Assembly (NCBI RefSeq): GCF_001953635.1
Contig: NZ_MEJH01000003.1
Location: 248,001 to 312,000 of the forward strand
Length of the DNA stretch: 64,000 bases
Direction: 5' to 3'
DNA from: Alteromonas abrolhosensis
GTDB lineage: Bacteria; Pseudomonadota; Gammaproteobacteria; Enterobacterales; Alteromonadaceae
Below the pieces are notes generated by a model. It did no database searches and was not told the DNA's origin. It saw only the letters and a list, made by a program, of their open reading frames with translations. The translations under genes and the position numbers were made by a program. Shown one piece after another: positions 9,090 to 63,158 of this stretch. Numbering within the stretch: position 1 is the first letter of the stretch; every line of letters starts with the position of its first letter.

Positions 9090-9101
9090 ATCCTTTACTC
9101 G

Positions 9102-13241: not shown

Positions 13242-13317
13242 CCTTGCCCCTTTTCCACTGCATACACTTATTGCTTGCTAGGCTTATTGCCATCGCCTGC
13301 GTGTGAACTCGCTGCTG

Positions 13318-15223: not shown

Positions 15224-15253
15224 ACAAAAAAACGCACAGAGCGTGCGTTTTTT
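15224..15253 (-). terminator. Rho-independent terminator of dsbC
   Basis: On the minus strand, AACGCAC pairs with GTGCGTT across a 5-base loop and is followed by seven T. It lies about 30 bases after the dsbC stop and separates dsbC from recJ. Confidence 0.85.
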
Positions 15254-15280
15254 TCATATTTAACGTTAGGGACTAAATGG

Positions 15281-16003: not shown

Positions 16004-16365
16004 TAAAACTCTCCATTATGCCATTTAAGCTCATTCTCGCTTATTGGCGTAGAATGCGATTGCTCGACTATGTGCCCCATGGCAAACGGCAACCGCTGAA
16101 AATTTTCACACTTATTATGTCAGACCACCAAACCTAACAAAAAATTGCATTTACCATGCAAATTGTCTGTCTACCACCAGATTTTTACCCTTGCTACAGC
16201 AACATGCAACTTGGTGTACTTAATAAAATGTGAGGGTAGTCATTTTTATATAAATATACTCCATGTATCCTAACATAGACCGCACTATTTTATACATGCC
16301 CGCACTTAACCTCATCGTATGCAGTACACAATTTGTAGCATTATAATTTAAGGCTTTTAAGTCAT
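16004..16365. other. Gene-free stretch between dsbC and xerD
   Basis: This stretch is 362 bases, AT-rich toward xerD. No convincing gene is seen: the open frame on the plus strand is out of context and lacks a ribosome-binding site. It should hold the dsbC promoter. No terminator, riboswitch or repeat stands out. Confidence 0.6.
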
Positions 16366-18153: not shown

Positions 18154-18647
18154 CGCGTCATACTCCATTAGTGCACTGCAAAAAAGTCGATGGTGCAGTT
18201 ATTAGTACACGCCGTGCTCAGCGCGATAAGTACATCATCATATCAAATGCTTACATTAATTAACTAGGGCTACAGAACCGTTTGACGATTAAAAGACTTA
18301 TGAAATACCAACAAATTGCACGTTAACATTCACGCCGCCCCAGACGTTAAACTTTTGGTCAGAGTGACTTAAAATCAAGTTTCACTCCTTTATTTGTTCG
18401 CTGTTTGATAAGTAATGTATTTAAAAGTGCATTTTTTTGTCTGAATGGTTGGTAATTGTGCCAGAAGTGCTTAGAATTGAGCGCTTATATAAATTGTAAT
18501 AGCGAGTGAACGCCACATTATCTCTTTGCCAAGAAATAATGTGCATAATCACTGTTTTTTTAAACGTTATGTCGAACTAACCGGGACGGTTGCCGTCTTA
18601 CTTGGGTTTAAAAGCAACATACAACAAAACAGGCCGCCCATTAACGC
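18154..18647. other. Divergent intergenic region djlA/lptD
   Basis: A 494-base AT-rich region between divergent genes, with no gene of its own. It should contain both promoters; a sigma-E-like promoter for lptD is described separately. No repeat or small RNA could be recognised by eye. Confidence 0.6.
18574..18600 (+). promoter_or_regulatory. Possible sigma-E (RpoE) promoter of lptD
   Basis: GAACTA, 16 bases, then TCTTA. E. coli sigma-E promoters have GAACTT, about 16 bases, then TCTGA, so spacing fits exactly and one base differs in each box. It ends 47 bases before the lptD ATG. lptD-surA is a known sigma-E target in E. coli, which raises the prior. Confidence 0.5.
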
Positions 18648-20900: not shown

Positions 20901-20959
20901 CCCGCAGTTGAGCGCTCAAACGCGCTTAAATGCAATCAACCAATAATAAAAGAGTGTGT

Positions 20960-22243
20960 ATGAAGTTCATTATCCGTGCATTGATGTTAGGTGCCCTACT
21001 CTCGTTTAACAGTATTGCGCAAGAGGTCATGCTAGACCGCGTTGCTGTGATTGTTGACCAAGGCGTAATACTTGAAAGCGAAATCGATGCGCTAATACAA
21101 GACGTTAAACGCAACGCAGAAGCGAATAATCAACAGTTACCGTCAGACCGTGCGCTTCGTACACAGGCTATTGAGCGCTTAATCTCAAAAAGCCTTCAAC
21201 TACAAATGGCAGAGCGTATGGGTATTCGTATCAGCGACCCACAGCTAGAGCAAACCATTAGCAACATTGCCGCTAACCAAAATGCGAGCATAGAAGAGCT
21301 TCGTACTCAGTTAGCAGCAGAAGGTATAGCCTATGACGATTATCGCGAAGACATTCGCGAAGAAGTTATCATGGGTGAAGTTCGCCGTGCCAACGTACGT
21401 CGTCGCGTCTATATTACGCCACAAGAAATCGATACCTTAGTTGACCTAATGGAGCAACAAGGTGCTGAGCAAGCAGAGTACCGCTTAGGCCACATTCTAA
21501 TTGGTTTCCCACCAGAACCAACAGATGAAGATATTCAAGCTGCGCGCGATCGCGCTGATAAAGTAATTTCGCTTTTAGAGTCTGGCTCTGACTTTGCTAA
21601 AATTGCTATTGCATCTTCGTCGGGTAATGAAGCACTAGAAGGTGGTGACATGGGCTGGTTAAATATTAACGCCATGCCTACTCTTTTTGCTGAAGCTATT
21701 CAAAACAAAGAAAAAGATACACTGGTTGGCCCAATTCGAAGCGGTGCGGGTTTTCACATACTAAAAGTGCTAGATACTCGCGGTATAGAGAAAGTCACCG
21801 TGGAAGAGGTTAAGTCTCGTCACATTCTTGTTAAGCCGTCGATCATTCTTAGTGAAGACAAAGCAAAAGCCATGCTTAACCGCTTCAAAGAGGAAGTGAA
21901 AAACGGCGACGCTGACTTCGCAGAGTTAGCCAAAGAGCATTCGGAAGATCCTGGCTCAGCCCTTCGCGGTGGTGAATTAGGTTGGTCAGATCCGAGTGTT
22001 TACGTGCCTGAATTTAAAGATGCACTTGCACAGCTTGAGCCGGGCGAGTTCAGCGAGCCTGTACGCACCGTGCACGGCTGGCACTTAATCCAGCTTATCG
22101 ACCGTCGCATTGACGATGCCACTGACAAGCGTAAAGAAGACAAAGCTTATCAGCTGATCTTCAACCGTAAATTTGCAGAAGAGACAGAAAACTGGTTACG
22201 TGAGATGCGCGATGCCGCTTACGTAGAAGTTGTCGAATCGTAA
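20960..22243 (+). CDS. surA: Periplasmic chaperone/peptidyl-prolyl isomerase SurA
   Basis: SurA escorts outer-membrane proteins such as LptD to the BAM complex. From the ATG at 20960 the protein is 427 residues with a signal peptide (cleavage after SIAQ), an N-terminal chaperone domain, and two parvulin domains starting at [14 protein letters not shown] and [12 protein letters not shown] chose 20960 over the upstream ATG at 20930 because it places the hydrophobic signal at the very start. The lptD-surA-pdxA-rsmA order is that of E. coli. Confidence 0.95.
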
Positions 22244-22256
22244 TTATAAGTTATTC

Positions 22257-23243
22257 ATGAGCACACCAATTAAAATAGCAATAACGCCGGGAGAACCGGC
22301 AGGTATCGGGCCAGATTTGATAATCAAACTGGCCCAAGAAACATGGCAAGCACAGCTTGTCGTGTTTGCCGATGGCGACATGCTCAGGGCGCGAGCAAGC
22401 ACCTTGGGGTTGCCTTTAACGCTAATCGATTACGATGCCACTAACCCGCAAATTCAAGATGCGGGTTCGTTGTTTATAAAGCAGATAGATAAATCCGTTG
22501 ATGTTACGCCGGGCGAGCTCGATAGCGAAAACGGGTTATATGTGGTCGAAACCCTGCGCCAGGCGTGTCAGGCTAATATGGATGGCGACTTCGACGCTGT
22601 AGTCACCGGCCCCGTGCACAAAGGCATTATTAACAAAGCGGGCGTTTCATTTAGCGGCCACACTGAATTTTTTGCCTATCAGTCCAATACCATTGATGTG
22701 GTTATGTTATTGGCAACTGAAGGCCTTAATGTGGCACTTGCTACCACACATATTCCCCTTGAATATGTGGCGAAGGCTATCACTCGAGAACGTCTTCATA
22801 AGGTCATTCATATCATCAACACCGACCTTAAATTGAAGTTTGGCGTTAAAGAACCTCATATCTACGTATGTGGTTTGAACCCTCACGCGGGTGAGGACGG
22901 TCATATTGGTACTGAAGAAATCCACACTATCATTCCCGCGCTTAACGAGCTTAGAGAAGAAGGCTTAAAGATCACAGGTCCTCTGCCTGCTGACACAATA
23001 TTTCAGCCCAAATACTTAGAAAACGCTGATGTGGTACTCGCTATGTATCACGACCAAGGCTTACCCGTGCTAAAATATAAGGGTTTTGGGGCGTCAGTGA
23101 ATATCACGCTAGGGTTACCCTTCGTTCGTACCTCGGTAGATCACGGTACTGCGTTAGATTTAGCAGGAACTGGTGAAGCCGACGCCGGTAGTTTCAGAAA
23201 AGCATTGGAAAAAGCCATCGAGCTTGCACATCATCAACAATGA
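22257..23243 (+). CDS. pdxA: 4-hydroxythreonine-4-phosphate dehydrogenase PdxA
   Basis: PdxA oxidises 4-phosphohydroxy-L-threonine to the aminoacetone phosphate used by PdxJ. The 328-residue enzyme starts with [16 protein letters not shown] and contains [21 protein letters not shown] (zinc-ligand His), [10 protein letters not shown] and [12 protein letters not shown] with the other metal-binding His. The ATG at 22257 is preferred over the ATG at 22230, which lies inside surA and adds nine non-family residues. Its stop overlaps the rsmA start by four bases (ATGA). Confidence 0.96.
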
Positions 23244-24067
23244 GTAAAACACATTTAGGCCATACGGCCAGAAAGCGATTCGGTCAAAACTTCCTTCACG
23301 ACGACTATGTGATAGGCAAGATTGTTGCAGCCATCGCGCCGAAAAATGAACAAAACCTGGTAGAAATTGGGCCAGGTTTAGGTGCGCTAACAGACCCTGT
23401 TTGTGAAGAAGTCGACGCACTGACAGTCATTGAGCTAGATAGAGATCTTGCCAAGCGATTACGACATCATCCGTTTAATGGCGATAAGCTAACGGTTATT
23501 GAACAAGATGCAATGACCATGGACTTTGGCGCCCTTTCGAAAGAGATGCCGATAAAAGACAAGAAGCTGCGCGTGTTTGGTAACTTGCCCTACAACATTT
23601 CAACGCCGCTGATGTTCCATCTTTTTGACCACGCTCACTGCATTGAAGACATGCATTTCATGCTTCAAAAAGAGGTAGTAAATCGTTTAGCCGCGGGGCC
23701 GGGTTCGAAAAACTACGGCAGACTTTCGGTTATGGCCCAGTATTACTGCCACGTCATTCCAGTGTTGAATGTTCCGCCAGGCGCGTTTAAGCCACCACCG
23801 AAGGTAGATTCTGCGGTAGTGAAGCTCGTACCTCATCGGACTCCTCCTGTAGACGTTGAGTCGGTAAATACCCTTGAGCGCGTTTGCGCACAAGCATTCA
23901 ATCAGCGCAGAAAAACCATTCGCAACTCGCTAAAAGACAGTTTGAGTGAGGAAGAGATCCGAGATTTAGGTATTGACCCAACCTCTCGTGCGGAAGTGCT
24001 ATCACTTAATGATTTTGCCACGATCGCTAATGCCGTATCGGCAAAAGAGCACCAACAAGAGCAGTAA
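23240..24067 (+). CDS. rsmA: 16S rRNA dimethyladenosine transferase RsmA (KsgA)
   Basis: RsmA dimethylates A1518 and A1519 in the 3' hairpin of 16S rRNA late in 30S assembly. The 275-residue protein shows [14 protein letters not shown], the SAM loop [10 protein letters not shown], the acidic ELDRDL, and the catalytic motif [10 protein letters not shown], followed by the helical C-terminal domain with [12 protein letters not shown]. The four-base overlap with pdxA indicates translational coupling. Confidence 0.97.
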
Positions 24068-24074
24068 GTTCTCT

Positions 24075-24449
24075 ATGGATGTACTTGATATTAAGGTGCG
24101 GGTGAAAACCCGCCACCTTCCTGACCACCTCCCTTCAGATTCAAAGCAGTTTGCCTTCGCGTACCACATCACGATTGAGAACAATAGCGACCATACGGTA
24201 CAGCTACTCAGCCGCTATTGGAAAATCACTGATGCAAACGGCAAGACGTCAGAAGTAGAAGGTGATGGTGTTGTAGGTAAGCAGCCTATCATGAAAGCAG
24301 GCGAGCACTTTGACTATACCAGTGGTGCTGTCATTGACACACCCGTTGGGAATATGGAAGGCTACTACGTGATGGAAATGGAAGGCGGTGAGCGCTTTCG
24401 CGTTCCTATTAACGTTTTTCGTTTAGCCATTCCAAGTATTCTTCATTAA
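24075..24449 (+). CDS. apaG: ApaG protein (Co2+/Mg2+ efflux-type FN3-fold domain)
   Basis: The 124-residue ApaG domain protein has an FN3-like beta-sandwich; its molecular role is unsettled. The signatures are SKQFAFAYHITIENNSD, the central GDGVVGKQPIMKAGEHF, and YTSGAVIDTPVGNMEGYY. The ATG at 24075 gives the usual length. A longer open frame runs back into rsmA but that part has no family similarity. It is 7 bases after rsmA and 7 bases before apaH. Confidence 0.95.
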   Translation: MDVLDIKVRVKTRHLPDHLPSDSKQFAFAYHITIENNSDHTVQLLSRYWKITDANGKTSEVEGDGVVGKQPIMKAGEHFDYTSGAVIDTPVGNMEGYYVMEMEGGERFRVPINVFRLAIPSILH

Positions 24450-50943: not shown

Positions 50944-52293
50944 TTAACTCGTACCTAACTCAGCTGCAATGGCGTCTGCCTGACGTTTTTCGCCCTGCAC
51001 AAACTGCTTCCACTGCTGTGCCATAGCACGACTTTTCTGATGCTTTTCTGCTTCAGCTAGCTGATTAAGCGCAAGGGCATATTGCTTCTTGTTGTAAAGT
51101 GCCATGCCTTTAATCAGGTAAACCAAACCAGGGTTTCTCAAATCGCCCTTTTCAACCGCACGGTCTGCCGCAGCAATTGCCTCGTCAAAGCGCTCTTCAT
51201 TAAGAAGAATTTGCGCTAACTGTGCATCTAACTCACCGTCTTCAGACAGTTCAGCCGCTTGCATCATAACGGGAATGGCTTTGTCTTGCTCTTTAGCAAG
51301 TGACCAGCTTTGGCCTAAGAACTTAAGGTTGCGCAAGTTTTTCTCTAGCACGCCGTCGTTCATCGCCTGCTCCATCAACTTAGCACCTTTGTAAGGTACG
51401 CGATGATAGTAATAAAGCTGCGCCATGTTAAACACATCAGCGGATGTATTAACGAACCCTCGCTGATAGGCGGTTTCCATAATAGCCAACTGCTTGCGCT
51501 CTTCGCCTAGCTCACCGTACATACCCGCTAGCTGGATCCAATACTTAGGCTCGTCAAACAGCTTCACCATTTTAACCAGAACGTCTTTAACCTTCTCAGG
51601 CTGCTTGAGTTCATAGAAAATAGCACGCTGAAGTATTAACCAGCCTTCGTCAGGGATCATGCCTTCCGCTTCGTGATCGGCAACGGCTTCTGAAATCCAC
51701 GTTGAGGCTTGCTCGTACTGCTTATTCTGGTAGTACGCTTGGGCTTTGATGACTTTGTTTTTCACCGGCACAGGGCCAGCATTAAGACTTTCCCAACGTT
51801 CCAAATAAGTGATGGTGTCGTCGTAATTACCCTGCATAAGGTTAAGCTGCGCTAAACTGAAAAGTGTAGTCATTTCGAACTTTTCAGGAATAGGCTGTTG
51901 CTCTACCACTTTCGCGAACGATTCCAACGCCTTTGCATAGTCTTCGTTGTTGTAATAAATGAAACCGAAAAAGTTGTACATCATGGCTTTTTCGTAAGCG
52001 TTCATAGAGTGAGACTTATCTTCCACTTCTTTCAAAATGGAAATAGCTTCTTCTACATCGCCAGCTTCATCTGCTGCCGTTTGTGCACGGGCTAGTTGCT
52101 CGTAGACTTTGCCGCGAAGCGTTGGTACCCGACGGGTTTGCTTATCGCTAGCTTTTATCTCTTGTCCATCTTGCTGCTCAGCCTCTTGCGCTATTGCGTT
52201 AGAAACAATGAACATAGTAGGTACAGATACCGTGGCCGATGCAAATGCAAACGCCAGTGCACTAAGCAATGTATTCGTCTGTTTTCTCATCAT
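50944..52293 (-). CDS. TPR protein of the TonB2/TtpC cluster
   Basis: The 449-residue secreted protein carries a signal peptide ending near AIAQEA and a long array of TPR-like helical repeats (for example MYNFFGFIYYNNEDYAKAL, LAQLNLMQGNYDDTITYLE). It is probably periplasmic. It is the last gene of a tightly packed operon (six bases after tonB) that energises an outer-membrane receptor. TPR genes in this place are usual in the TtpC-TonB2 clusters of Vibrio, Shewanella and relatives. A role in assembling or stabilising the periplasmic complex is inference. Confidence 0.85.
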   Translation of the reverse strand: MMRKQTNTLLSALAFAFASATVSVPTMFIVSNAIAQEAEQQDGQEIKASDKQTRRVPTLRGKVYEQLARAQTAADEAGDVEEAISILKEVEDKSHSMNAYEKAMMYNFFGFIYYNNEDYAKALESFAKVVEQQPIPEKFEMTTLFSLAQLNLMQGNYDDTITYLERWESLNAGPVPVKNKVIKAQAYYQNKQYEQASTWISEAVADHEAEGMIPDEGWLILQRAIFYELKQPEKVKDVLVKMVKLFDEPKYWIQLAGMYGELGEERKQLAIMETAYQRGFVNTSADVFNMAQLYYYHRVPYKGAKLMEQAMNDGVLEKNLRNLKFLGQSWSLAKEQDKAIPVMMQAAELSEDGELDAQLAQILLNEERFDEAIAAADRAVEKGDLRNPGLVYLIKGMALYNKKQYALALNQLAEAEKHQKSRAMAQQWKQFVQGEKRQADAIAAELGTS

Positions 52294-52299
52294 GATCTG

Positions 52300-52908
52300 T
52301 TACCCGTCTATTTGGAACGAAATACGGTTTTGTACACCAGACACTTCTGTTGCTTCGCCATTTACTACCCGAGGCTTATATTTGAACTTCATTGCCGCAT
52401 CAATCGCCGCTTGTTCAAAAATACCTGAAGGGTTAGCTTCAACAACAATTGGGTCGCGTACTGCGCCTTGCTTAGTTACTGTAAATTCAACAATAACGAA
52501 ACCTTCAATACCCCGTTGAAGTGCACGTCGTGGATATACTGGCGCAACCTTAACGATAGGAAGATATTCACCGTCACCGGATTCAAGGGCCAGCCCGCCT
52601 TCTAGCGAGATGTCGTCTCCGACTTCAGCACCAAAGTCCATCGACGTTCCTTCTGCATCTGGAGAAGGTGAGTCCATTTGAGGCTGCTCCATTTGCGGTG
52701 GCGGCTCTTCAGGCTTAGGTGGCTTCTTCGGCTTACGATCTTTTTTCTCAACCTGTTCATCCTGCTTAACCCTTACGAAGTCAAGCACGCTTCCCTTAGG
52801 CGGCTCAGTTAGTGCGCTGCCACCCATCTTGATAAGCGATTGCATCAAGAAGAACAGGCCTAAGGTGATCGCAAGGGAAATAACAAATGCGATTAAATAT
52901 CGTGGCAT
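52300..52908 (-). CDS. tonB: Energy transducer TonB (TonB2 type)
   Basis: TonB carries the proton-motive-force signal from ExbB/ExbD to outer-membrane receptors. The 202-residue protein has one N-terminal membrane anchor (residues about 5-25), a Pro/Lys/Glu-rich spanner that is short for TonB (KKPPKPEEPPPQMEQPQ, residues about 60-77), and the C-terminal beta domain with PVYPRRALQRGIEGFVIVEF and KYKPRVVNGEA. A short spanner is typical of TonB2, which relies on TtpC. It lies three bases after exbD. Confidence 0.94.
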   Translation of the reverse strand: MPRYLIAFVISLAITLGLFFLMQSLIKMGGSALTEPPKGSVLDFVRVKQDEQVEKKDRKPKKPPKPEEPPPQMEQPQMDSPSPDAEGTSMDFGAEVGDDISLEGGLALESGDGEYLPIVKVAPVYPRRALQRGIEGFVIVEFTVTKQGAVRDPIVVEANPSGIFEQAAIDAAMKFKYKPRVVNGEATEVSGVQNRISFQIDG

Positions 52909-52911
52909 GAT

Positions 52912-53319
52912 TTATTGCTCTTGGGCTGCAATCGAAACATCGTAAACGCCAGCGGCTCGCGACGCGTCCATAACCTTAATCAGTGTTTCTGTCGTGGCCT
53001 TTTTGTCAGCCTGAATTACGACAGAACCCTGTGGGTTTTCTGCGCGAAGACGCTCAATGTTCGCTTGTACTGCGCGAACGTCGATACGGCGTTTGTTAAT
53101 CCAAATTTCGCCTTTATCTGAAATAGCGATAAGGATATTAGCGCGGTCCTTTTTCACAGCAGTTGCTGCTTCAGGTCGGTTAACATCGATACCCGCTTCT
53201 TTCACAAATGACGCAGTCACAATGAAGAAGATCAACATGATAAATACAACGTCCAGCATGGGCGTCATGTCGATGGCTGCTTCTTCTTCATCGACTAAGT
53301 TTTGAAAGTGCTGCTTCAT
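52912..53319 (-). CDS. exbD: Biopolymer transport protein ExbD
   Basis: ExbD is the single-span subunit of the Ton motor, with the proton-handling aspartate in its membrane helix. The 135-residue protein has IDMTPMLDVVFIMLIFFIVT (the conserved Asp at LDV), then a periplasmic domain with VVIQADKKATTETLIKVMD. It follows exbB by 32 bases and precedes tonB by three bases. Confidence 0.95.
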   Translation of the reverse strand: MKQHFQNLVDEEEAAIDMTPMLDVVFIMLIFFIVTASFVKEAGIDVNRPEAATAVKKDRANILIAISDKGEIWINKRRIDVRAVQANIERLRAENPQGSVVIQADKKATTETLIKVMDASRAAGVYDVSIAAQEQ

Positions 53320-53351
53320 AATAAATACCTTACCTTAACGCTTAGCTAGCA

Positions 53352-53870
53352 TTAACGTTGAATAATCAATGCATCCTCAAGATGCGTGCGTTCTGATTTC
53401 ACCATACGAGTTAACCAGGTAGCGGCGAATACGCCTGAAAGTGCGCCAACCATGCCCGCCATTGTGGGGATAGTGGCTTTCGATACACCTGAGGCCATTG
53501 AACGAGCATTACCTGAGCCCGCAATCGCCATTACATCGAACACTTCAATCATACCGGTAACCGTTCCCATCAAGCCTAGCAGCGGACAAAGCGCAACCAG
53601 TGACTGGATAATTGGGATGCTGCCGTTTAGGCGCATGGTTAACTGTGAAATTGTTTTCTGACGAACCTGCTCTGCGAACCAAGAAGAGCGATCGGCACGT
53701 GCTGTCCACATTGCTATCGCTTCTTTCTTGGCTTGCTTGTGCCAAACCATCAGATACATCGCACGCTCGAGGATCAAAAGCCACATAACGAATATCAGCA
53801 GACCGATGACCAGGAGAACCTGGCCACCTGTTTCTGTGAAATCGCGAATTGCTTCTAGAAACTCGATCAT
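53352..53870 (-). CDS. exbB: MotA/TolQ/ExbB proton-channel protein, short ExbB2
   Basis: The 172-residue protein has three membrane helices: GGQVLLVIGLLIFVMWLLI near the start, then PIIQSLVALCPLLGLMGTVT and GALSGVFAATWLTR. It shows the MotA/TolQ/ExbB signature LLGLMGTVTGMI. This is the short channel subunit of the Ton motor. It starts two bases after the ttpC stop. Together with TtpC it makes two ExbB-like proteins in one operon, as in the Vibrio TonB2 system. Confidence 0.93.
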   Translation of the reverse strand: MIEFLEAIRDFTETGGQVLLVIGLLIFVMWLLILERAMYLMVWHKQAKKEAIAMWTARADRSSWFAEQVRQKTISQLTMRLNGSIPIIQSLVALCPLLGLMGTVTGMIEVFDVMAIAGSGNARSMASGVSKATIPTMAGMVGALSGVFAATWLTRMVKSERTHLEDALIIQR

Positions 53871-53872
53871 GA

Positions 53873-55246
53873 TTAGCCTCGCTCAGCGCGCTCTGCAATT
53901 ACGCCAGACGCCTGTTCTTGTAGGATGTACACAATGTTCTTAGAACGTGTGTTAAGCATTGCATAAAGCAGTGTCATTGGAATCGCTACAACTAGACCTA
54001 GTACTGTTGTTACAAGTGCAGTTGAAATACCACCTGCCATCAGTTTCGGGTCACCCGTACCAAACAAGGTAATAGCCTGGAAGGTGTTAATCATACCGGT
54101 TACCGTACCTAGTAGACCCATAAGCGGTGCTACAACAGAGATAATCTTAATGATAGTTAGGTTGCGACCTAACTTAGGCACTTCGCCTAAAATCGCTTCT
54201 GTAAGGTGAAGTTCAAGCGCTTCAACGTCAGCGTCTGGGTGCTCGTCACGTACTTTAAGAACACGGCCAAGCGGGTTGTTAGTGTTAACTTCTTTGCTCT
54301 TAAGTTGCTTGTTCACTTTCATGCGAATAAGCGACAGCGTTACAAGACGCTCAAGGGCAAGTAGAAGACCGAACGCACCAACGATAAGAATGATGTAACC
54401 TACTACGCCGCCCTGCTCTACACGCTCTTGAAGGTTAGGCGCTTGAACAAGAAGACCTAGGATTGAACCACCCGTTGGGTCGATACCGAACTGTACTAAT
54501 TCACCGCTTGATGCTTGTAGTTCAGCAGCAGAATCCATGTAACGGTCAGCAGGCTGACGTACAAGTTCAGAAACTGTACCTGTTACACCGTTGTACTCTA
54601 GGTATTTGCCATCAGCAACAAGTGCAAAAGGACCTACGCGAACAACAGACTTATTCACTTTTTCACCGCCTGCTTCAACAACGTCTGTCTTGAACGTAGT
54701 TACTTTGCCGGCTTCAGTCATTTCGCGCTGCATTTCAAACCAAACGCGCTCAATTTCTTCAATTGATGCTAGCTTTGAGCTTGAACCCATGTCCTGTGCC
54801 ATTTTATCAAGGAAGTCAGCACGGCCAGGGATTTGTGCAGAAACCACTGAGTTATAGAATTTGTTTTTGGTGTCGCCAGCGATTTGCTGAAGTACACCGA
54901 ATAGCTCTTTAAGTGAACCAAGACGTGTGTCTAGTGCACCGTTAAGATCTGCTAGTTTGAATTCGTTTTCTTCGAACTGAGTTTCAAGCTTTTCAGATTG
55001 CGCAAGCATCTGGTCGCGCTTCTCGCGAGTTTCGCGAAGAATGCGATCTTGCTCTGCACGTTGCGCTTGGAAATCACGCTCGCGCTGTTTGTTTTGCTGA
55101 GACTGTGCGAACTGACCTTCTTCTAGTTGCTTAAGAAGTGCGTCTAAGTCCATGGCACGGTCGCTTTGTGCGAAAGCACCAACGCTGATGCTAAGGGCTG
55201 CTAGACCAACAGCGATACGTTTTACTGTGTTAAACATTCTCATCAA
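53873..55246 (-). CDS. ttpC: TtpC-type ExbB-like protein with periplasmic coiled coil
   Basis: The 457-residue protein has a signal peptide ending at GAFAQ, a periplasmic coiled coil (residues about 28-115, Gln/Glu/Arg-rich), a beta-rich middle portion, and a C-terminal MotA/TolQ/ExbB domain (about 270-450) with GGVVGYIILIVGAFGLLLAL and PLMGLLGTVTGMINTF. This architecture is that of TtpC, which is needed with ExbB2/ExbD2/TonB2 for receptor energisation in Vibrio. It starts five bases after the DUF3450 gene. A role as a gear or scaffold that spans the periplasm fits its shape (inference). Confidence 0.9.
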   Translation of the reverse strand: MMRMFNTVKRIAVGLAALSISVGAFAQSDRAMDLDALLKQLEEGQFAQSQQNKQRERDFQAQRAEQDRILRETREKRDQMLAQSEKLETQFEENEFKLADLNGALDTRLGSLKELFGVLQQIAGDTKNKFYNSVVSAQIPGRADFLDKMAQDMGSSSKLASIEEIERVWFEMQREMTEAGKVTTFKTDVVEAGGEKVNKSVVRVGPFALVADGKYLEYNGVTGTVSELVRQPADRYMDSAAELQASSGELVQFGIDPTGGSILGLLVQAPNLQERVEQGGVVGYIILIVGAFGLLLALERLVTLSLIRMKVNKQLKSKEVNTNNPLGRVLKVRDEHPDADVEALELHLTEAILGEVPKLGRNLTIIKIISVVAPLMGLLGTVTGMINTFQAITLFGTGDPKLMAGGISTALVTTVLGLVVAIPMTLLYAMLNTRSKNIVYILQEQASGVIAERAERG

Positions 55247-55250
55247 CCTC

Positions 55251-56009
55251 TTAGTCTGTAATTGCCACTGGCAGCATTAGCAAGTCTGGTGCAAGTTGCT
55301 TCTTCGCCATGCGCAGACCTTTTGTAATTTGTGTACGGTAGCTGCTATCAAGCTCTTCCCACTGACGAGTTTGCTTGTTCCAAACACCCTGCATGCTTGC
55401 ATCACGTGTTTGATAAATTAGCGCTGTACGACCAAGGCGTAGGAATTCAACGTCACGCTCTTGACCGTTAATTGTGTGAATACCGCTGTACGCTTCCATA
55501 GTGCGGCCGTAGTCCATCTCTACCTGATACGCTTCCATTACGCGACGGAATTTTTCAGACGCAGCAACGTCGGCACGATCCATCATGGCGCGAAGGTCAG
55601 CTACGCGATTTGCGCGCTCTTCAGGAAGGAAAGGTACGTCTAGCGCAACAAACTGCTCTAGGCCGTCAATCATACGCATCATAAGTGGTGTGATTTGACG
55701 CTCAACAACAGATACTTCATCGATAGCAGCGTTTAGATCTGCCATTTCTTGTTCTTGGTTATTGATTTGCTTACGAAGCTGAGTGTTATAAACCTCAAGG
55801 CCTTCGATTTCTTTCATCAATGTTTTGAACTGTTGAAGTTTGCTGTCGATTTGGTCGGTAATACCGTTAATCTTTTCTTGCGATTTCGCCGCTGACTCGT
55901 TTATTTTCGCTGCCTCATCGACAACGGGTTTTAAGACTTCATCGTCTTGTGCAAGCACGGGTGTCGCTGCTAGCGCACCTGCTACAAGCAAGGCATTGAT
56001 AAGCTTCAT
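55251..56009 (-). CDS. DUF3450 family periplasmic coiled-coil protein
   Basis: The 252-residue protein has a signal peptide ending at PVLAQ, a coiled-coil region at about 25-115 (KINGITDQIDSKLQQFKTL and following), and a helical rest with FVALDVPFLPEERANRVADL and DRADVAASEKFRRVMEAYQ, the recognisable DUF3450 blocks. It ends with LMLPVAITD. The family occurs as the first gene of TtpC-TonB2 operons. A Pho-box-like promoter lies 61-95 bases before its start. Its role is unknown, but the tight operon implies a part in energising the receptor. Confidence 0.9.
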   Translation of the reverse strand: MKLINALLVAGALAATPVLAQDDEVLKPVVDEAAKINESAAKSQEKINGITDQIDSKLQQFKTLMKEIEGLEVYNTQLRKQINNQEQEMADLNAAIDEVSVVERQITPLMMRMIDGLEQFVALDVPFLPEERANRVADLRAMMDRADVAASEKFRRVMEAYQVEMDYGRTMEAYSGIHTINGQERDVEFLRLGRTALIYQTRDASMQGVWNKQTRQWEELDSSYRTQITKGLRMAKKQLAPDLLMLPVAITD

Positions 56010-56069
56010 ACATTCAAACCTTTAAAGTTAAAAGAAATCGGTTTTGTCCGACTATAAATTTCTGCGCGT

Positions 56070-56103
56070 AGGATAGGAGTTTTCTGTGACAGTTTTATTA
56101 CGA
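56070..56103 (-). promoter_or_regulatory. PhoB-box-like promoter of the DUF3450-ttpC-exbB-exbD-tonB operon
   Basis: On the minus strand TCGTAAT, AAAA, CTGTCAC matches the E. coli Pho box (CTGTCAT, 4 AT-rich bases, CTGTCAT) at 4 of 7 and 7 of 7, with the exact spacer. Ten bases further on is TATCCT, a -10-like hexamer, which is the usual distance. The same region also forms a palindrome, TGACAGTTT-N7-AAACTGTCA (56087-56111), so another regulator is possible. Confidence 0.5.
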
Positions 56104-56137
56104 AACTGTCATAAATCGAAGACTATTGTCACAAATA

Positions 56138-56164
56138 GAAAAGCCCGGCAGATAAACCGGGCTT
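56138..56164 (-). terminator. Terminator of the TonB-dependent receptor gene
   Basis: On the minus strand AAGCCCGG and CCGGGCTT pair across eight bases, followed by TTCTATTT, about 50 bases after the receptor stop. Confidence 0.8.
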
Positions 56165-56216
56165 AAGATGATTGTTGCTGCTCTCTTTTTAAAGAAGCAG
56201 AACTAGGATTATTTTC

Positions 56217-58913
56217 TTAGAAGTTATAAGTAATTGAAGCGTTTATACCTGTACCTACACTTAGCTTACGCAGCGTAAGGCCTTCTTGCTCAATTTCTTT
56301 TTCGTCGTTGAAAATATTTTGTACACGGAATTTAATCGTTGTGTTGAAGTCTGGATAGTAGGTATAAACGGCATCCAAAGAATGGAACGGTTTTTCAATA
56401 CCATCTTCAAAACCACGCACACCCGGCGCAATAATACGCTCACCAAATGAGTTATAAACTAATGACGCTGAATGCTCACCGTTATCAGAATCCCAACCTA
56501 GTTGAAAGTTAGCAACCCATTCTGAGTGACCCACTAGACGACGTTTGTCGTTAGTAATAGTCGCTGTGATTGTACCGCCGTATGCTTCACGAGCCTGCTG
56601 AGAGAACAGTGATTCTTGATCGCCACTACCAATGGTTACTTCTGAGTCAGAAAGCGTCATGTTTCCTGATACAAAGAAGTTACTGAAGTTATCACCAATA
56701 AAGCCAAGGTCGTGCAAGAATTCAAACTCGATACCGTACAACTCACCTTCCTGACCGTTTGCCGTCAATAGCTGAGGTACACCTTCACCGCCGTCAAACT
56801 GCACCATCTCGATAGGGTTTTCCATATCTTTATAGAAGAGTGCAACAGACAAGTTGTTACCTTGTGACATATACCACTCCCAGCGGAAGTCGATATTGGT
56901 CAATTCAGTTTCAACCAATGAAGGAGAACCACGTACAAGGAATTCTGTTAGCGGGTCGATAAAGAAGGTTGAGCTGATATCACGTAAGTCAGGACGGATT
57001 AGCGTTTGGCTGATGTTAAAGCGATACTGCATTTCTTCACTTGGGATATAAGTGAAAGCTAATGACGGTAGTACATCAGATTCATTGTAGATGCTGTCAA
57101 TGATGGCATCAGTGTCGTCAGCAAACTTATCCGAGTGCTCGATAAATGGAATCGATACTTGCTGGAAGTCTTCATAACGAGCACCGCCACTTACGCGGAA
57201 CTTCTGGTTGAAGAATGCATCAACCATGAAATAGCCTGCGGTAAGTTTAGTTGCCGCTGAGTACTTATCACCTGCACCTGTATTGTCCTGAAACACAGAA
57301 CGACCCGTTGAGCTGGTGTAGAAGTCGTCGTTATAGATATTTTCTTGTGAGAAAATTTCATTCAAACGGCTACCTTCTTTAAAGTCAGAAGAAATACCAA
57401 AGTGACGCACCGCTAAGTCAATATTGTTACCGTCACGGGTTTTGTCGTAGTAATCCATACCGGCTTTAAGTTCAACGTCGTAGCCATCGCCGAAGAACGC
57501 GGTAGACACGTTGAAGCCATAGGTATCAGACTCATCATAAAGCACCTGATATTGACGGTTTAAGTTAGTTCCTGGCGTATCATCAAGACGCTCAAGCTCT
57601 AATGCACCCGACTCATCGTAGAACTGCTGGAATGTTACTTCCATGATATCTGGCGCTTCACGAGACGCACGGCTAGTTCCCACGTACCAATCGAAAAACA
57701 CACCATCTAACAAGTTAAGGAAGTTGTGCGTGCCTTTAAGCTGTGAAGAAACCATTTCACGCTCTTCAAAAATGATATCCATGCGGCGGAATTCTTCCAC
57801 GCCAGGGTTAGATTCACTTTCGTCGAAGTAGTATCCATCGCGAACACGGTCTCGCATGTCGTGAAGGATCATGTTCACAAGTTCTACTTTGTGGTTGCTG
57901 TTGTACTCGTAACCCACGTTGAACATACCGCTCCAACGCACGTTTTGCTCAGTAGACACCATGTCGCGATATTTAGTGAAACGTGGATTTTCCTGACCAC
58001 CACCAATATCGTTACCTAACATCTCTTCGGCAACTGTCCATTCGTTGCTGTAAGAAACCGTTGCAAGGAAACCAAGCACAGAGTCGTTGTCGAATACGTA
58101 ATTGTTACCAATGGTCGTACCCAAGCTGAAGTTCGGGTCTACAGACTTTTCGTCTGGGCCGATGTCCCAGTTAAATGAACTTAGGATATCCTGCGTTTCA
58201 GCCAGTGTTCTTGTACGGTCACCCTCGAAGCCTGCAGAACCATTTGCAGCAAGACCCGAGCTGATAATGTCAGGCAGTGCACGGGTACCGTCATCACGAC
58301 CTGTCCAATCATCGCCGCCACCAGAATAGAAAACACCGGTGTCGCTGTTTTGCGTATTCCAACCGCCACCTGCACTTACGTTAAATACAAATTCAGATGG
58401 GATTGATTTAGTACGAATGTTTACATTACCACCACCAAAGTGACCAGGCATATTGGGTGAGTAAGATTTCTGAACGTTCAGGCTTTCGATAATGCTTGAA
58501 GGGAATAAATCAAGCGGTACAACCGAGCGCGTAGGATCCGGACTTGGTACTGTCATGCCATTTAGCTGTGTGCTTGAATAGCGCTCACCCAAACCACGAA
58601 CGTAGATAAATTTACCGTCAACTAGCGTAAGACCTGTTACACGTCGAAGTGCAGCAGCGGCATCGCCGTCACCGGTACGAGAAATTTGTTCTGCGCCAAG
58701 AATATCAGCAACGAACGCCTGATTCTGACGTTCTTGTAAAACCGCCGTTGCGGTTCCTTTAAGTCGCGTGCCCGTAGCAACGACTTCTTCAATTACTTCG
58801 TCTTCTGATTGCTGTGCTACTGCTGATAACGGTAACGCACTTGCGCCAAGAATGGACGCGATAGCCAGCGAAAGTCCACCGACTTTAAATGCTGACGTTT
58901 GATTGTTTTTCAT
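56217..58913 (-). CDS. TonB-dependent outer-membrane receptor
   Basis: The 898-residue receptor has a signal peptide ending at AVAQQ, a short TonB-box-like region (EEVVATGTR), a plug domain (residues about 55-170; YVRGLGERYSSTQLNGM, then PGHFGGGNVNIRTK), and a 22-strand barrel ending in aromatic Phe (SITYNF). It lacks the N-terminal STN signalling domain, so there is no FecR-type signalling. Within the barrel, no siderophore or B12 feature can be read. It lies directly downstream of the giant lipoprotein gene on the same strand. AGGAG precedes the ATG. The ligand is unknown; the Pho-box context suggests a phosphorus compound (inference). Confidence 0.93.
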   Translation of the reverse strand: MKNNQTSAFKVGGLSLAIASILGASALPLSAVAQQSEDEVIEEVVATGTRLKGTATAVLQERQNQAFVADILGAEQISRTGDGDAAAALRRVTGLTLVDGKFIYVRGLGERYSSTQLNGMTVPSPDPTRSVVPLDLFPSSIIESLNVQKSYSPNMPGHFGGGNVNIRTKSIPSEFVFNVSAGGGWNTQNSDTGVFYSGGGDDWTGRDDGTRALPDIISSGLAANGSAGFEGDRTRTLAETQDILSSFNWDIGPDEKSVDPNFSLGTTIGNNYVFDNDSVLGFLATVSYSNEWTVAEEMLGNDIGGGQENPRFTKYRDMVSTEQNVRWSGMFNVGYEYNSNHKVELVNMILHDMRDRVRDGYYFDESESNPGVEEFRRMDIIFEEREMVSSQLKGTHNFLNLLDGVFFDWYVGTSRASREAPDIMEVTFQQFYDESGALELERLDDTPGTNLNRQYQVLYDESDTYGFNVSTAFFGDGYDVELKAGMDYYDKTRDGNNIDLAVRHFGISSDFKEGSRLNEIFSQENIYNDDFYTSSTGRSVFQDNTGAGDKYSAATKLTAGYFMVDAFFNQKFRVSGGARYEDFQQVSIPFIEHSDKFADDTDAIIDSIYNESDVLPSLAFTYIPSEEMQYRFNISQTLIRPDLRDISSTFFIDPLTEFLVRGSPSLVETELTNIDFRWEWYMSQGNNLSVALFYKDMENPIEMVQFDGGEGVPQLLTANGQEGELYGIEFEFLHDLGFIGDNFSNFFVSGNMTLSDSEVTIGSGDQESLFSQQAREAYGGTITATITNDKRRLVGHSEWVANFQLGWDSDNGEHSASLVYNSFGERIIAPGVRGFEDGIEKPFHSLDAVYTYYPDFNTTIKFRVQNIFNDEKEIEQEGLTLRKLSVGTGINASITYNF

Positions 58914-58958
58914 TGTGTAACTCCTAAGAAACTGTAATCAGGTAGCTGCGCTTACACA

Positions 58959-58988
58959 AAAGCTAAGGCGTTAAAACGCCTTAGCTTT
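58959..58988 (-). terminator. Terminator between the giant lipoprotein and the receptor gene
   Basis: A 14-base stem (AAAGCTAAGGCGTT/AACGCCTTAGCTTT) is followed by TTGTGT on the minus strand. It would reduce read-through into the receptor gene and let lipoprotein exceed receptor. Confidence 0.85.
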
Positions 58989-59009
58989 ACTGTGTCTCGC
59001 ATTCACTTA

Positions 59010-62000
59010 TTAGTCTTGAAGACCAACAGTTACCCAACCCAGTGTCCAGTCAGACTCACCGTCGAATGCACCTTGGAAGTCTGTGCTATCAAAGAAAGCA
59101 TCCAAAGTAGAAGCGTCGAAGCCTGAACCTAATAAAACTGAATTGCTTGCAGGTACGAAACCTGTTGAATCAAAGCCAAGTGCTGCAGTGTCAGCAAGTA
59201 CACTGTTGCCGTCTTGACCTTCAAACCATGCTTGTGTGCTGTCTGTACCTATTGTATCTGAACCGAAAGCACTCGTAGATGAACATGCTACTGTTGAGTG
59301 TGTAACAGTTAGTGAACCTGCTGCTGCATTAGCAATTGACTCGTCCCCATTCACTCGTAGGCAGTTGCTGTAGTTTGCACCACCGGTAACCACTAGGTTT
59401 TTGATTGTACCCGCTGTACCGTTGCGAAGACGTACACCGTTTGTATTGTCTGCACCTAAGATTGTTACATTAGATACTGTTGGTGTAGTCAGTGGTGTCC
59501 ACGCAGGGTTATCTTCGTTGTTGTCAGCTTCGAAGGCATTGTCACCACCCGCTGCGTCTTGCTTGATAACTACGTACTGCGCCTTACCTGTCCAACCGAA
59601 CGACCAGTCTAGAGAATCGTCACCGATAGCCGTTAGCACTAAGTGGCTTACGTTTACTGTACCGCCGAAGAACTCAACGCCATCATCTAGGTTTTGATGA
59701 ACTTGAACGAAGTCAACTTCAGTACCGCTACCTACACCCGCAAATGAAATACCGTTTAGCTCATCACCTGCCGCAAGTGCTTTACCTGCGTGCTTCACTA
59801 TAACGTAGCGTAGTGTACCTGAGTTATCTTCGCTATCTGCACCACCATATAGACCCGCATCACCTTCTGCAGCTACACCACAGTTAGCAAGCTCTGCTTC
59901 AGAAGTGTCAGCGTCGTCGCCTGTGTTACATAGGTTTGTTGGTGCGTTACCTAAGATAACTAGACCGCCCCATTGACCAATGGCTGTCTCGCCACCAGTC
60001 ATATCTTCAGAAGATGTGAAGGTAATTGGCAATGTTGCTGTACCAGCAGCTTCAATTTTAGAGCCGCGACGAACAACTAGGAAATCATCACCGTCTTCGC
60101 CGAATACTGTCGTACCGCGCTGAATGTAAAGTGTCGCGCTGTCAGCATTGTCGTTACCTACCGCTGTACGACCTTTAATTAGCCAGTGAGCATCGTTAGT
60201 TAGCGATACATCAGCAGTAAATACGGTGTCAGCTGCAAGCTGATACACTGGCTTGTCAGTGATATCAGGGAAGCTAGCAGACACGTCAGTCGCCAAGCCT
60301 TGCTCTAGTGCAGTCGTAACGTCAGCCGGAATGCTATCGTTTACCGCAACAGTCCAACCGTCCATCCAGTTGTTGTCACCGTCAAATGCACCGATATAGT
60401 CAGTTGCTGCGAAGAAATCATTCTCTTCTGATACATCAACGCCCGCACCAAGAAGTGGAGAGCCAGAGCGAGGTGTAAAGCCATCGTTAGAAAGCATTAG
60501 TGCATCAGCGGTAAGTACGCTGTTACCCGTTTGACCTTCAAACCATGCTTGAGTAGTACCGCCACCAATAGTGTCTGAACCAAAGTTATTGCCTGATTCA
60601 CAAGCAACCACTGAATGTTCTACAGAAAGCTCGCCAGATACTGCGTTAGCAATTGACTCGTCGCCGTTAACACGTAGGCAGTTAGAGTAGCCTTCACCAG
60701 CAGTAACAACCAGATTGCGAATGTTACCCGCAGTACCGTTGCGTAGACGTACGCCGTTAGTTGTGTCAGCGCCAACGATAGTCACGTTAGAAATAGTAGG
60801 CTTAGTAAGTGGAAGCCACGCTGGGTTGTCTTCGTTGTTATCTGCTTCAATAGCATTGTCGCCACCAGCAGCTGACTGTTGGATATAAACGTTTTGCGCG
60901 TTACCTGTCCAACCGAAAGACCAATCCAGTGAATCATCACCGATATCAGTAAGTACAACGTTACGTACGCTAACGGTACCGCCAAAGAATTCAATACCGT
61001 CATCAAGGTTTTGGTGAACCTGAATGTACTCAACTTTAGTGCCTGAACCGATACCTGCAAATGAGATACCGTTTAGCTCATCACCGGCTGCAAGAGCGCG
61101 ACCTGCGTGTTTAACTACTACGTAGCGAAGTGAACCTGTGCTGTCTTCTGGGTTATTACCGCCGTAAAGACCCGCGTCACCTTCAGCAGCCACACCACAT
61201 GCAGCAAGTTCAGCGTCAGACGTATTTGCATCGTCACCGGTATTACAAAGGTTAGTTGGAGCGTTACCTAGAAGTACAATACCACCCCATTGGCCAATAC
61301 CCGTTTCGTCACCAATAAGGTCTTGTACAGAGGTAAACGTGATAGGTGCACTTGCTGTACCGTTAGCTTCAATTTTAGAACCACGACGTACTACTAGGAA
61401 GTCATCACCTTGCTCACCAAATACAGTTGTACCTTGCTCGATGTAAAGTGTTGCGCTGTCTTCGTTATCGTTACCTACTGCAGTACGGCCTTTAATTAGC
61501 CAGTAAGCATCGTTGGTAAGGGTCACGTCAGATGTAAATGTGGTGTCTGCAGCGATTTCGTAAACTGGCTTGTCTAGGTCGAAGTCAGCCGATACGTCTG
61601 TTGCTAAACCTTGTGCAAATGCGTTTTGAACGTCAGCTGGGAAACCGCCATTTACGCCTACCGTCCAACCCACCGTCCAGTCTGTGCCGTTAGGGTTGAA
61701 TGCACCGATATATTGACCGCCGCCAAGCGCAACAGGAGAAGAGGCAGTTGGGAAGTAACCGTTGTCTTCAAGCATTAATGCAGAAGCAGCTAATACGCTG
61801 TTGCCATCTTGGCCTTCAAACCATGCTTGAGTAGTGCCACCGTTAATGGTGTCAGAACCAAAGTTGTTCGCAGGTGTTTCACACGCAACAATTGAATCAG
61901 TAATTGTAAGCTCGCCCGACTCAGCATTTGCAATCGCTTCGTCACCGTTTACGCGAAGGCAGTTGTTAGCCAGGGTAGAACCGGTAATAAGTACATTTGA

Positions 62001-62905
62001 AAGTACGCCTGCCGTACCGTTACGTAAACGTACGCCGTTGGTGCCATCAGCACTTACAATAGTCACATTTGAAATAGTTGGCTTAGTTAACGGTAACCAA
62101 GACGGATTGTCTTCGTTGTTATCCGCTTCAATAGCGTTGTCGCCACCGTCAGCTGACTGTTGGATATAAACGTTAGTTGCGCTACCAGTCCAACCAAATG
62201 ACCAATCTAGTGAATCGTCACCGATGTCAGTAAGTACAACGTTACTTACGTTAACTGTACCACCGAAGAACTCAATACCGTCATCTAGGTTTTGGTGAAC
62301 CTGAATATAGTTAACTGTGGTGCCTGAACCGATACCAGCGAATGAAATACCGTTTAGTTCGTCACCTGATGCCAGTGCTTTACCCGCATGCTTAACTACA
62401 ACGTACTCTAGCGTACCTGAGTTATCTTCTGGGTTGTTACCGCCGTAAAGACCTGCATCACCTTCTGCAGAAACACCGCAGTTTGCAAGTTCTTCGTCAG
62501 ACGTATCTGCATCGTCACCCGTATTACAAAGGTTAGTTGGTGCATTACCTAGTAGAACGACACCGCCCCACTGACCGATAGAAGTTTCTTCACCAGTAAC
62601 ATCTTGTACCGATGTCATCACGATAGGCGCTGAAGACGTACCAGATGCGTCAATTTGAGAGCCACGACGAACAACCAAGAAGTCATCGCCATCTTCGCCG
62701 ATTACTGTAGTACCTTCTTGAATAGTTAATACCGCTGCATCAGCGTTGTCGTTACCAACCGCCGTACGACCTTTGATGATCCAGTGAGCATCGTTCGTTA
62801 AGGTCATATCTTGAGTGATAGTTAAATCGGTATCTAAACGATAAACAGGCTTATCTGTAATCGTTCCTGAGAATTCGCTTGATACGTCAGTAGCAAAGCC
62901 TAGAG
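59010..62905 (-). repeat. Three tandem ~1.3-kb protein-coding repeats inside the giant lipoprotein gene
   Basis: Units are approximately 62905-61625, 61620-60310 and 60305-59010. The deduced motifs recur in the same order and spacing in all three. Units 1 and 2 are very close in many stretches (for example the GGNNPED and NLDDGIEFFGGTV regions), while unit 3 is slightly more divergent. Such a gene can change repeat number by recombination. Confidence 0.85.
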
Positions 62906-63080
62906 AGAACGGCGTATCTACATCAGGGGTAGTCGGTGTCGTTGGTGTTGTAGGTGTAGTTGGCGTTGTTGGAGTTGTTACTACTTCATCACCTTCATTA
63001 ATATTGATGTCACCGCCACAGCCTGCAAGGACAAGCGCAGTCGTGATAGCACTTACCTTAAATATGTTACGAATTTCCAT
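59010..63080 (-). CDS. Giant lipoprotein with three tandem beta-helix-like units
   Basis: The 1356-residue protein has a lipoprotein signal (VLAGCGG) and a Thr-Pro linker (TPTTPTTPTT type, about residues 33-52). Three copies of a unit of about 430 residues follow, starting near residues 58, 487 and 925. Each unit carries KPVYxLxxD, DAHWLIKGRTAVGNDN, GDDFLVVRRGS, GQWGGxVLLGNAPTNLCN, GDAGLYGG, VVKHAGxAL, GDELNGISFAG, NLDDGIEFFGGTV, GDDSLDWSFGW, GGDNAIEADNNEDNP, NGVRLRNGTAG and NCLRVNGDE. The repeated short strands and Gly/Asn turns look like a parallel beta-helix. Cysteines recur at fixed places in each unit, suggesting disulfides. It may be surface-exposed and serve the receptor downstream. 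The ligand is unknown. Confidence 0.9.
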   Translation of the reverse strand: MEIRNIFKVSAITTALVLAGCGGDININEGDEVVTTPTTPTTPTTPTTPTTPDVDTPFSLGFATDVSSEFSGTITDKPVYRLDTDLTITQDMTLTNDAHWIIKGRTAVGNDNADAAVLTIQEGTTVIGEDGDDFLVVRRGSQIDASGTSSAPIVMTSVQDVTGEETSIGQWGGVVLLGNAPTNLCNTGDDADTSDEELANCGVSAEGDAGLYGGNNPEDNSGTLEYVVVKHAGKALASGDELNGISFAGIGSGTTVNYIQVHQNLDDGIEFFGGTVNVSNVVLTDIGDDSLDWSFGWTGSATNVYIQQSADGGDNAIEADNNEDNPSWLPLTKPTISNVTIVSADGTNGVRLRNGTAGVLSNVLITGSTLANNCLRVNGDEAIANAESGELTITDSIVACETPANNFGSDTINGGTTQAWFEGQDGNSVLAASALMLEDNGYFPTASSPVALGGGQYIGAFNPNGTDWTVGWTVGVNGGFPADVQNAFAQGLATDVSADFDLDKPVYEIAADTTFTSDVTLTNDAYWLIKGRTAVGNDNEDSATLYIEQGTTVFGEQGDDFLVVRRGSKIEANGTASAPITFTSVQDLIGDETGIGQWGGIVLLGNAPTNLCNTGDDANTSDAELAACGVAAEGDAGLYGGNNPEDSTGSLRYVVVKHAGRALAAGDELNGISFAGIGSGTKVEYIQVHQNLDDGIEFFGGTVSVRNVVLTDIGDDSLDWSFGWTGNAQNVYIQQSAAGGDNAIEADNNEDNPAWLPLTKPTISNVTIVGADTTNGVRLRNGTAGNIRNLVVTAGEGYSNCLRVNGDESIANAVSGELSVEHSVVACESGNNFGSDTIGGGTTQAWFEGQTGNSVLTADALMLSNDGFTPRSGSPLLGAGVDVSEENDFFAATDYIGAFDGDNNWMDGWTVAVNDSIPADVTTALEQGLATDVSASFPDITDKPVYQLAADTVFTADVSLTNDAHWLIKGRTAVGNDNADSATLYIQRGTTVFGEDGDDFLVVRRGSKIEAAGTATLPITFTSSEDMTGGETAIGQWGGLVILGNAPTNLCNTGDDADTSEAELANCGVAAEGDAGLYGGADSEDNSGTLRYVIVKHAGKALAAGDELNGISFAGVGSGTEVDFVQVHQNLDDGVEFFGGTVNVSHLVLTAIGDDSLDWSFGWTGKAQYVVIKQDAAGGDNAFEADNNEDNPAWTPLTTPTVSNVTILGADNTNGVRLRNGTAGTIKNLVVTGGANYSNCLRVNGDESIANAAAGSLTVTHSTVACSSTSAFGSDTIGTDSTQAWFEGQDGNSVLADTAALGFDSTGFVPASNSVLLGSGFDASTLDAFFDSTDFQGAFDGESDWTLGWVTVGLQD

Positions 63081-63124
63081 TAAATTCTCCAGATTTTTGT
63101 AATACGGATTCTAAGGTTTGCTAG

Positions 63125-63158
63125 AGAGTAAAGGAGATCGGTGACATTTTTGTTACAA
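63125..63158 (-). promoter_or_regulatory. PhoB-box-like promoter of the giant lipoprotein gene
   Basis: On the minus strand TTGTAAC, AAAA, ATGTCAC fits the Pho box (two CTGTCAT-type 7-mers with a 4-base AT spacer) at 5 of 7 and 6 of 7, allowing C or T at the last position. Ten bases downstream is TACTCT, a weak -10-like hexamer. The box ends 61 bases before the ATG. Confidence 0.45.

Follow-up and report, generated by a model that had tools for sequence, protein, structure and literature searches.

Within a 64,000-nucleotide stretch of Alteromonas abrolhosensis DNA (hereafter the window), eight genes between positions 50944 and 63158 probably encode an outer-membrane uptake system under the control of PhoB, made up of a large lipoprotein, a TonB-dependent receptor and a TonB2-type motor. 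Control of this block by the phosphate (Pho) regulon, as proposed in a first-pass annotation, is strongly supported by comparison of promoters and gene neighbourhoods: both Pho boxes are conserved, they are picked out by an Escherichia coli PhoB matrix, the sequence AATAAAACTGTCACAGA is found in the phoB promoter, the block adjoins phoBR-pstS, and the paralogous motor loci are boxless. Induction by phosphate limitation would be expected, and import of a phosphorus compound is the function that best accounts for the block.

All eight genes are on the minus strand, and analysis of open reading frames (ORFs) and Pfam domains located each of them where the first-pass annotation had placed a complete TonB2-type motor, a receptor and a lipoprotein of 1356 residues. 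The lipoprotein gene (59010..63080) encodes an ElpS-type, putatively beta-helical protein of 1356 amino acids with the lipobox LAGC, a predicted surface location and no Pfam family above cut-off. Its triple-repeat structure, also claimed earlier, is evident from repeats 1 and 2, which are 71% and 75% identical, respectively, to repeat 3. The receptor gene (56217..58913) encodes 898 amino acids with Plug and barrel domains, and matches TIGR01782 below the cut-off of that model. The motor is encoded by genes for a DUF3450 protein resembling TtpB2 (ttpB, 55251..56009; PF11932, 313 bits), a TtpC-like MotA/TolQ/ExbB protein whose N-terminal part is weakly DUF3450-like (53873..55246), a proton channel subunit of the ExbB2 type (ExbB, 53352..53870; Pfam), ExbD (52912..53319; Pfam), TonB (52300..52908; TonB_C) and a tetratricopeptide repeat (TPR) protein resembling TtpD2 (50944..52293; Pfam). 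Jointly, on one strand, these make up the gene set of a TonB2/TtpC system.

A box-like direct repeat with a 4-base AT spacer, followed 10 nucleotides (nt) on by a -10-like hexamer, had been noted before both transcription units and is present in each case. Upstream of the lipoprotein gene the box TTGTAACAAAAATGTCAC (63141..63158, minus strand) consists of TTGTAAC and ATGTCAC separated by AAAA, with no mismatch to the pattern TGTMAYN5TGTMAY, and the hexamer TACTCT (63125..63130, minus strand) lies 10 nt past it. The box TCGTAATAAAACTGTCAC upstream of ttpB (56086..56103, minus strand) consists of TCGTAAT and CTGTCAC around the same spacer, with one mismatch, and is followed at the same distance by TATCCT (56070..56075, minus strand). 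Repeats of 7 bp with an 11-bp period, about 10 nt ahead of a -10 element, are thus found at both sites, as in the PhoB regulon. When the 127,966 positions of the window were scored with a PhoB position matrix built solely from the E. coli phoA, phoB, pstS, ugpB, phnC, phoE and phoH promoters, the ttpB site ranked 1st and the lipoprotein site 4th. In 64 kb of shuffled sequence, 0.07 positions are expected to score as high as the ttpB site and 1.9 as high as the lipoprotein site; the latter alone is therefore not beyond chance, and it is conservation that settles the question. The earlier contention that chance is an unlikely source of the boxes stands for the ttpB score and for the conservation of both, but not for the score of the lipoprotein box alone, which is compatible with chance. 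The pattern TGTMAYN5TGTMAY was shaped after the window and genus sequences had been seen; independent tests are provided by the E. coli matrix and by 31 loci from other genera, described below, that were retrieved later.

Promoters were scanned within 250 bp in the window and in 40 further Alteromonas regions, taken from 40 of the 55 other genomes of the genus having the lipoprotein. Among these 41 entries, measurements are missing for the lipoprotein promoter of L078, at a contig end, for the receptor promoter of L082 and for the ttpB promoters of L066, L079 and L081, which have no motor beside; for two further lipoprotein promoters (L055, L074) a shifted start was used. Both boxes proved to be conserved in related Alteromonas genomes: the lipoprotein promoter matches the pattern without mismatch in 40/40 entries (0.03 expected), and the ttpB promoter with at most one mismatch in 38/38 (0.32 expected), 20 of them with none. 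As controls, the receptor promoter carried a box in 0/40 entries, and only one of 33 other ORFs of the window had a match with at most one mismatch. In other genera, 30 of 31 lipoprotein promoters matched with at most one mismatch (0.35 expected) and 21 with none (0.02 expected). A more distant set of ttpB promoters, one of which is from the genus genome G051, gave at most one mismatch in 13/16, including 10 with none. A scan of named genomes returned 10 loci. As a separate observation, a divergent second near-box lies at most 60 nt upstream of the lipoprotein box in 21/40 genus promoters and 9/31 other loci, as against 0/800 control windows; it is absent from the window (4 mismatches) and was not used as evidence.

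The spacing to the putative -10 element is equally constant. TANNNT is found exactly 10 nt past the lipoprotein box in 40/40 genus promoters, and TATCCT at +10 past the ttpB box in 34/38, the latter being the only count for ttpB that is free of a widening of the accepted hexamer set made after exceptions had been seen. In most of 25 same-genus loci with a readable phoB start (5 of 30 gave none), the phoB promoter carries AATAAAACTGTCACAGA or a near variant, like ttpB. At the two paralogous DUF3450 loci of the genome the box is missing (3 and 4 mismatches). A stricter pattern derived from the box-bearing promoters has 128 matches in 59 genomes, compared with 18 for a control; judged from the list, 115 of its matches are at phoB, the lipoprotein gene or ttpB. 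Because the pattern comes from those same promoters, these counts are a description of them and not a test. Used by itself, the exact pattern TGTMAYN5TGTMAY discriminates poorly, with 16 matches in the own genome versus 10 for its control, and three of the 16 precede ppk, a PhoX gene and a phospholipase A gene. Two more TonB-dependent receptor genes of this genome (L099, L100) have exact matches near their starts, and may be Pho-controlled too or may match by chance.

The block lies next to the phosphate regulators themselves. On the same contig (C13), where the window ends at C13:312000, a PstS match is found at C13:312186-313091 and a PhoB match at C13:314596-315273. ORFs and Pfam domains give the order phoB, phoR, a PstS-like binding protein, a 2-oxoglutarate-Fe(II) oxygenase and then the lipoprotein, all on the same strand; the oxygenase gene (PF13640; 63287..64000, minus strand) continues beyond the window end. 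Homologues of the lipoprotein are present in 56/59 genus genomes, and phoB is 2.6-4.2 kb from the lipoprotein gene on the same contig in 52 of these 56 and on another contig in 4. The co-occurrence of receptor, lipoprotein and TtpC operon, proposed earlier as a check, is borne out, with the lipoprotein-receptor-motor layout kept in 37/40 genus regions. At 30 loci from other genera the lipoprotein adjoins a receptor in every case, with phoB in the stretch at 15 and the motor at 14, although these fractions are not unbiased because the loci were chosen from the best lipoprotein matches. In Aliikangiella the same block, with both boxes, lies beside ppk and ppx.

Some genomes depart from this arrangement. 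In G051 (L141, L142) the motor directly follows pstS, and the lipoprotein-receptor pair, its box kept, is on another contig. The whole phoB-phoR-pstS-oxygenase-lipoprotein-receptor-motor block, with both boxes and the same neighbours as on the contig of the window, is found at 8032-24365 of a 238-kb A. macleodii plasmid record (pBGP9, L258), which is due either to capture by the plasmid or to an assembly artefact. Three genus genomes of 3.5-3.9 Mb (L138, L139, L140) are devoid of the lipoprotein, and two of them have a different receptor of about 870 amino acids near phoBR.

A mechanism can be proposed on this basis. At low phosphate PhoR would activate PhoB, which would bind the two Pho boxes and drive expression of the lipoprotein and receptor and of the six-gene motor ttpB-ttpC-exbB-exbD-tonB-ttpD. 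The lipoprotein, presumably anchored on the cell surface, would use its three beta-helix domains to capture the ligand, probably a solute or polymer that contains phosphorus. Import would then proceed through the cognate receptor, energised by the TtpC-type motor, and the phosphate set free might be taken over by periplasmic carriers, for example the PstS-like protein encoded next to the block. We suggest that the motor is the dedicated energiser of this receptor; three DUF3450 loci, each near an ExbD match, and 56 Plug-domain matches are present in the genome.

Lipoprotein and receptor behave as a matched pair. Across 38 genomes their identities are correlated at 0.97, while their correlations with the motor are only 0.31 and 0.36, and two motor proteins are mutually correlated at 0.91 (motor identity being the mean of five proteins, TPR omitted, and lipoprotein identity that of the last 440 residues). 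The weaker correlations likewise exceed all 1000 permutations. Two cassette types can be distinguished, and the types of lipoprotein and receptor agree in 38/38 genomes. The window and L076, for example, have motors that are 99.7% identical, receptors that are 47% identical and lipoproteins that are 42% identical. In relatives G021, G022 and G023, about 80-90% of nucleotides are identical as far as the end of pstS, and identity then falls across the oxygenase, lipoprotein and receptor genes, so that the oxygenase is inside the exchanged stretch in 3/3. In two of them an identity of 90-96% resumes just ahead of the ttpB box (window position about 56119), and in the third the match resumes already within the 3' end of the receptor gene. 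On a motor tree of the 38 genomes, constructed by a quick method, there are 9 type changes, at least 8 of which are forced by starred branches. Because of these type changes, and because of the drop in identity between the end of pstS and the ttpB box, the cassette appears to be exchanged as a unit that includes its own Pho box, the phoBR-pstS side and the motor that flank it remaining constant.

The locus might be a modular outer-membrane slot for phosphorus capture, in which matched cassettes are swapped on a fixed PhoB-controlled chassis and thereby change the phosphorus compound, or the phage, that is accepted; this is a tentative proposal. TonB-dependent receptors commonly serve as phage receptors, and in swapped genome pairs over half of the residues of receptor and lipoprotein differ while the motors are 97.8-99.7% identical. 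The swaps could accordingly reflect escape from receptor-using phages or bacteriocins rather than a change of ligand, an explanation that is compatible with Pho-controlled uptake and that we regard as possible but doubtful. Phage pressure might still be at work, but receptor and lipoprotein are swapped together, and the two broad types are encountered repeatedly across the genus.

A model of a single repeat (predicted local distance difference test score 95, 68 sequences) is predicted to adopt a right-handed beta-helix of the pectin-lyase-like kind. Its 50 listed matches in the PDB, judged by their names, are mainly right-handed beta-helix enzymes, surface proteins and tailspikes; they are weak, the best having E 0.005, none reaching E<=0.001, and template modelling scores ranging from 0.17 to 0.36. 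Eight acidic residues are invariant (D208, D209, E212, D230, D231, D234, E260 and D262) and lie roughly one coil apart, a spacing that suggests they are stacked as an acidic patch. No relative of lipoprotein or receptor was found in the PDB by sequence, in one search up to E 1 and one up to E 0.01. A lipoprotein of the SusD type, as in SusCD/PusCD, was rejected, since the protein has no SusD family (PF07980/PF14322); lipoprotein and receptor may function as a lipoprotein-receptor pair nonetheless. A search with a single repeat gave matches in 236 of 295 genomes sampled from the family, paralogues included. Lengths in 40 genus genomes fall into classes of about 480-530, 920-950 and 1350-1360 amino acids, corresponding to one, two and three repeats; repeat number thus varies between genomes of the genus, with measured extremes of 482 and 1362 amino acids.

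The closest described relative is probably ElpS (CC0170) of Caulobacter, a phosphate-starvation lipoprotein encoded beside the receptor CC0171 and ahead of type II secretion genes, with homologues noted in Shewanella and Bacteroides (PMC2996285). In that report ElpS is produced under phosphate limitation and exposed at the cell surface, and iron depletion did not increase it (data not shown by its authors). Like ElpS, the window lipoprotein has the lipobox LAGC and adjoins a TonB-dependent receptor. Unlike ElpS, the Alteromonas lipoprotein has one to three repeats, is linked to phoBR-pstS and to a TonB2 motor with a Pho box, and lacks neighbouring type II secretion genes. The assignment to the ElpS family is based on the synteny of homologues, the CC0170 sequence itself not having been aligned: in the matched part, alphaproteobacterial homologues share 36-38% identity with repeat 3, and in the two examined, from Sphingomonas and Indioceanicola, the order is lipoprotein-receptor-gsp as for ElpS (2/2). 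By description, the lipoprotein-receptor pair also resembles the low-phosphate pairs of lipoproteins FI, FII and FIII with TonB-dependent transporters (TBDTs; PUSIII, PUSIV) in Flavobacterium johnsoniae. These lipoproteins are modelled on polygalacturonase, strongly induced by phosphate depletion and reported as related to ElpS, and the gene for FII shares a phosphate-sensitive cluster with phoBR and a TBDT gene (PMC8115612). Unlike the window block, these pairs are from Bacteroidetes, and the text available describes no TtpC motor for them (PMC8115612).

These relatives raise the alternative that the lipoprotein is an ElpS-like helper, shed or staying outside, which assists secreted phosphatases in releasing phosphate, the receptor having a different ligand. 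ElpS is reported to be released, and overexpressing it to increase the activity of secreted alkaline phosphatase (PMC2996285), and the related Flavobacterium lipoproteins form a large share of the low-phosphate exoproteome (PMC8115612). We nevertheless consider a helper role unlikely in Alteromonas, where lipoprotein and receptor form a matched pair (r = 0.97, types agreeing in 38/38) that is swapped jointly while the motor stays; the pair is also adjacent in 30/30 loci of other genera.

The window motor has the same kinds of genes as the Vibrio TonB2-TtpC system, with DUF3450 first and a TPR member, but differs in its Pho boxes and in the lipoprotein-receptor pair beside it; the full Vibrio order we take to be TtpB2, TtpC2, ExbB2, ExbD2, TonB2 and TtpD2. 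In the Vibrio system TtpB2, which is the DUF3450 protein in V. vulnificus, and the TPR protein TtpD2 are both reported to be needed for iron transport (PMC6957404). A Pho-dependent TonB energiser is also known from Pseudomonas aeruginosa, where exbB2-exbD2-tonB4 of the PUMA3 regulon, an uncharacterised putative system, responds to phosphate starvation through PhoB and the sigma factor VreI (PMC4971064, PMC7035377). Unlike the window block it needs an extracytoplasmic function (ECF) sigma factor, and the portions of these papers available describe no TtpC, DUF3450 or ElpS-type lipoprotein beside it.

A number of observations weigh against a PhoB-controlled system for import of a phosphorus compound. 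The ttpB box fails, with 2 mismatches, in 3 of the 16 more distant promoters; it also has 2 mismatches in Pseudoalteromonas, where the lipoprotein promoter matches perfectly. Before the pairs of the far homologues in Sphingomonas, Indioceanicola, Hymenobacter and Parabacteroides no box with at most one mismatch was found (2-4 mismatches), and 7 of the 30 loci from other genera have neither phoB nor the motor nearby. Apart from the three mentioned above, the exact pattern matches of the own genome show no evident link to phosphate, against a control of 10. No phosphatase, nuclease or phosphonate gene that would name a ligand is among the genes of the block, and no expression data for the block were found among the matches listed in open-licence PubMed Central. 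In Caulobacter, CC0171 is reported to be constitutive, loss of ElpS to leave phosphatase activity unchanged, and a shift to poor medium to cause no detected change in intracellular phosphate (PMC2996285). The Vibrio TonB2 motor is reported to be induced by iron depletion and to drive siderophore uptake (PMC6957404), and the solved structures nearest to the receptor by fold are mostly receptors with iron, heme or copper ligands, which say little because identity is only 9-12%.

The last two points would fit a Pho-controlled importer of something else under phosphate limitation, such as an iron complex or a cofactor. This we regard as quite unlikely, given that the block adjoins phoBR-pstS and, in Aliikangiella, ppk and ppx, and that ElpS is reported not to respond to iron (PMC2996285). 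No Fur-like site was found before ttpB in a crude consensus test (best 8/19 mismatches; paralogues 8-9), which speaks weakly against iron control of the motor. That the boxes are sites of another OmpR-family regulator, or due to chance, is highly improbable: by the E. coli matrix, about two sites as good as the lipoprotein box would arise by chance in 64 kb, but the boxes are conserved in promoters of the genus and at 31 loci of other genera, the same sequence is present in the phoB promoter, and the -10 spacing is fixed.

Phosphorus is often limiting for marine bacteria, and little is known of how its compounds pass through the outer membrane during starvation. In Caulobacter and Flavobacterium, TonB-dependent receptors under phosphate control and lipoproteins of the ElpS type are on record, in the available accounts without a proven ligand. 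The parts of the system are known already, as ElpS, the Flavobacterium pairs, the PhoB-controlled receptors listed for Caulobacter (PMC11208175) and the Pho-dependent energiser of P. aeruginosa have been described; it is the combination and the cassette exchange in Alteromonas for which no description was found among the matches listed in open-licence PubMed Central. In close Alteromonas relatives, two receptor types are interchangeable within one compact block that has a motor of its own and conserved boxes, which makes a direct test of the ligand feasible.

Between the lipoprotein and receptor genes there is a terminator-like hairpin with a 13-bp stem (58959..58988, minus strand). A conserved terminator at this place was rejected, a hairpin followed by a run of T being found in 8/40 genus loci, of which the window, despite its stem, is not one.

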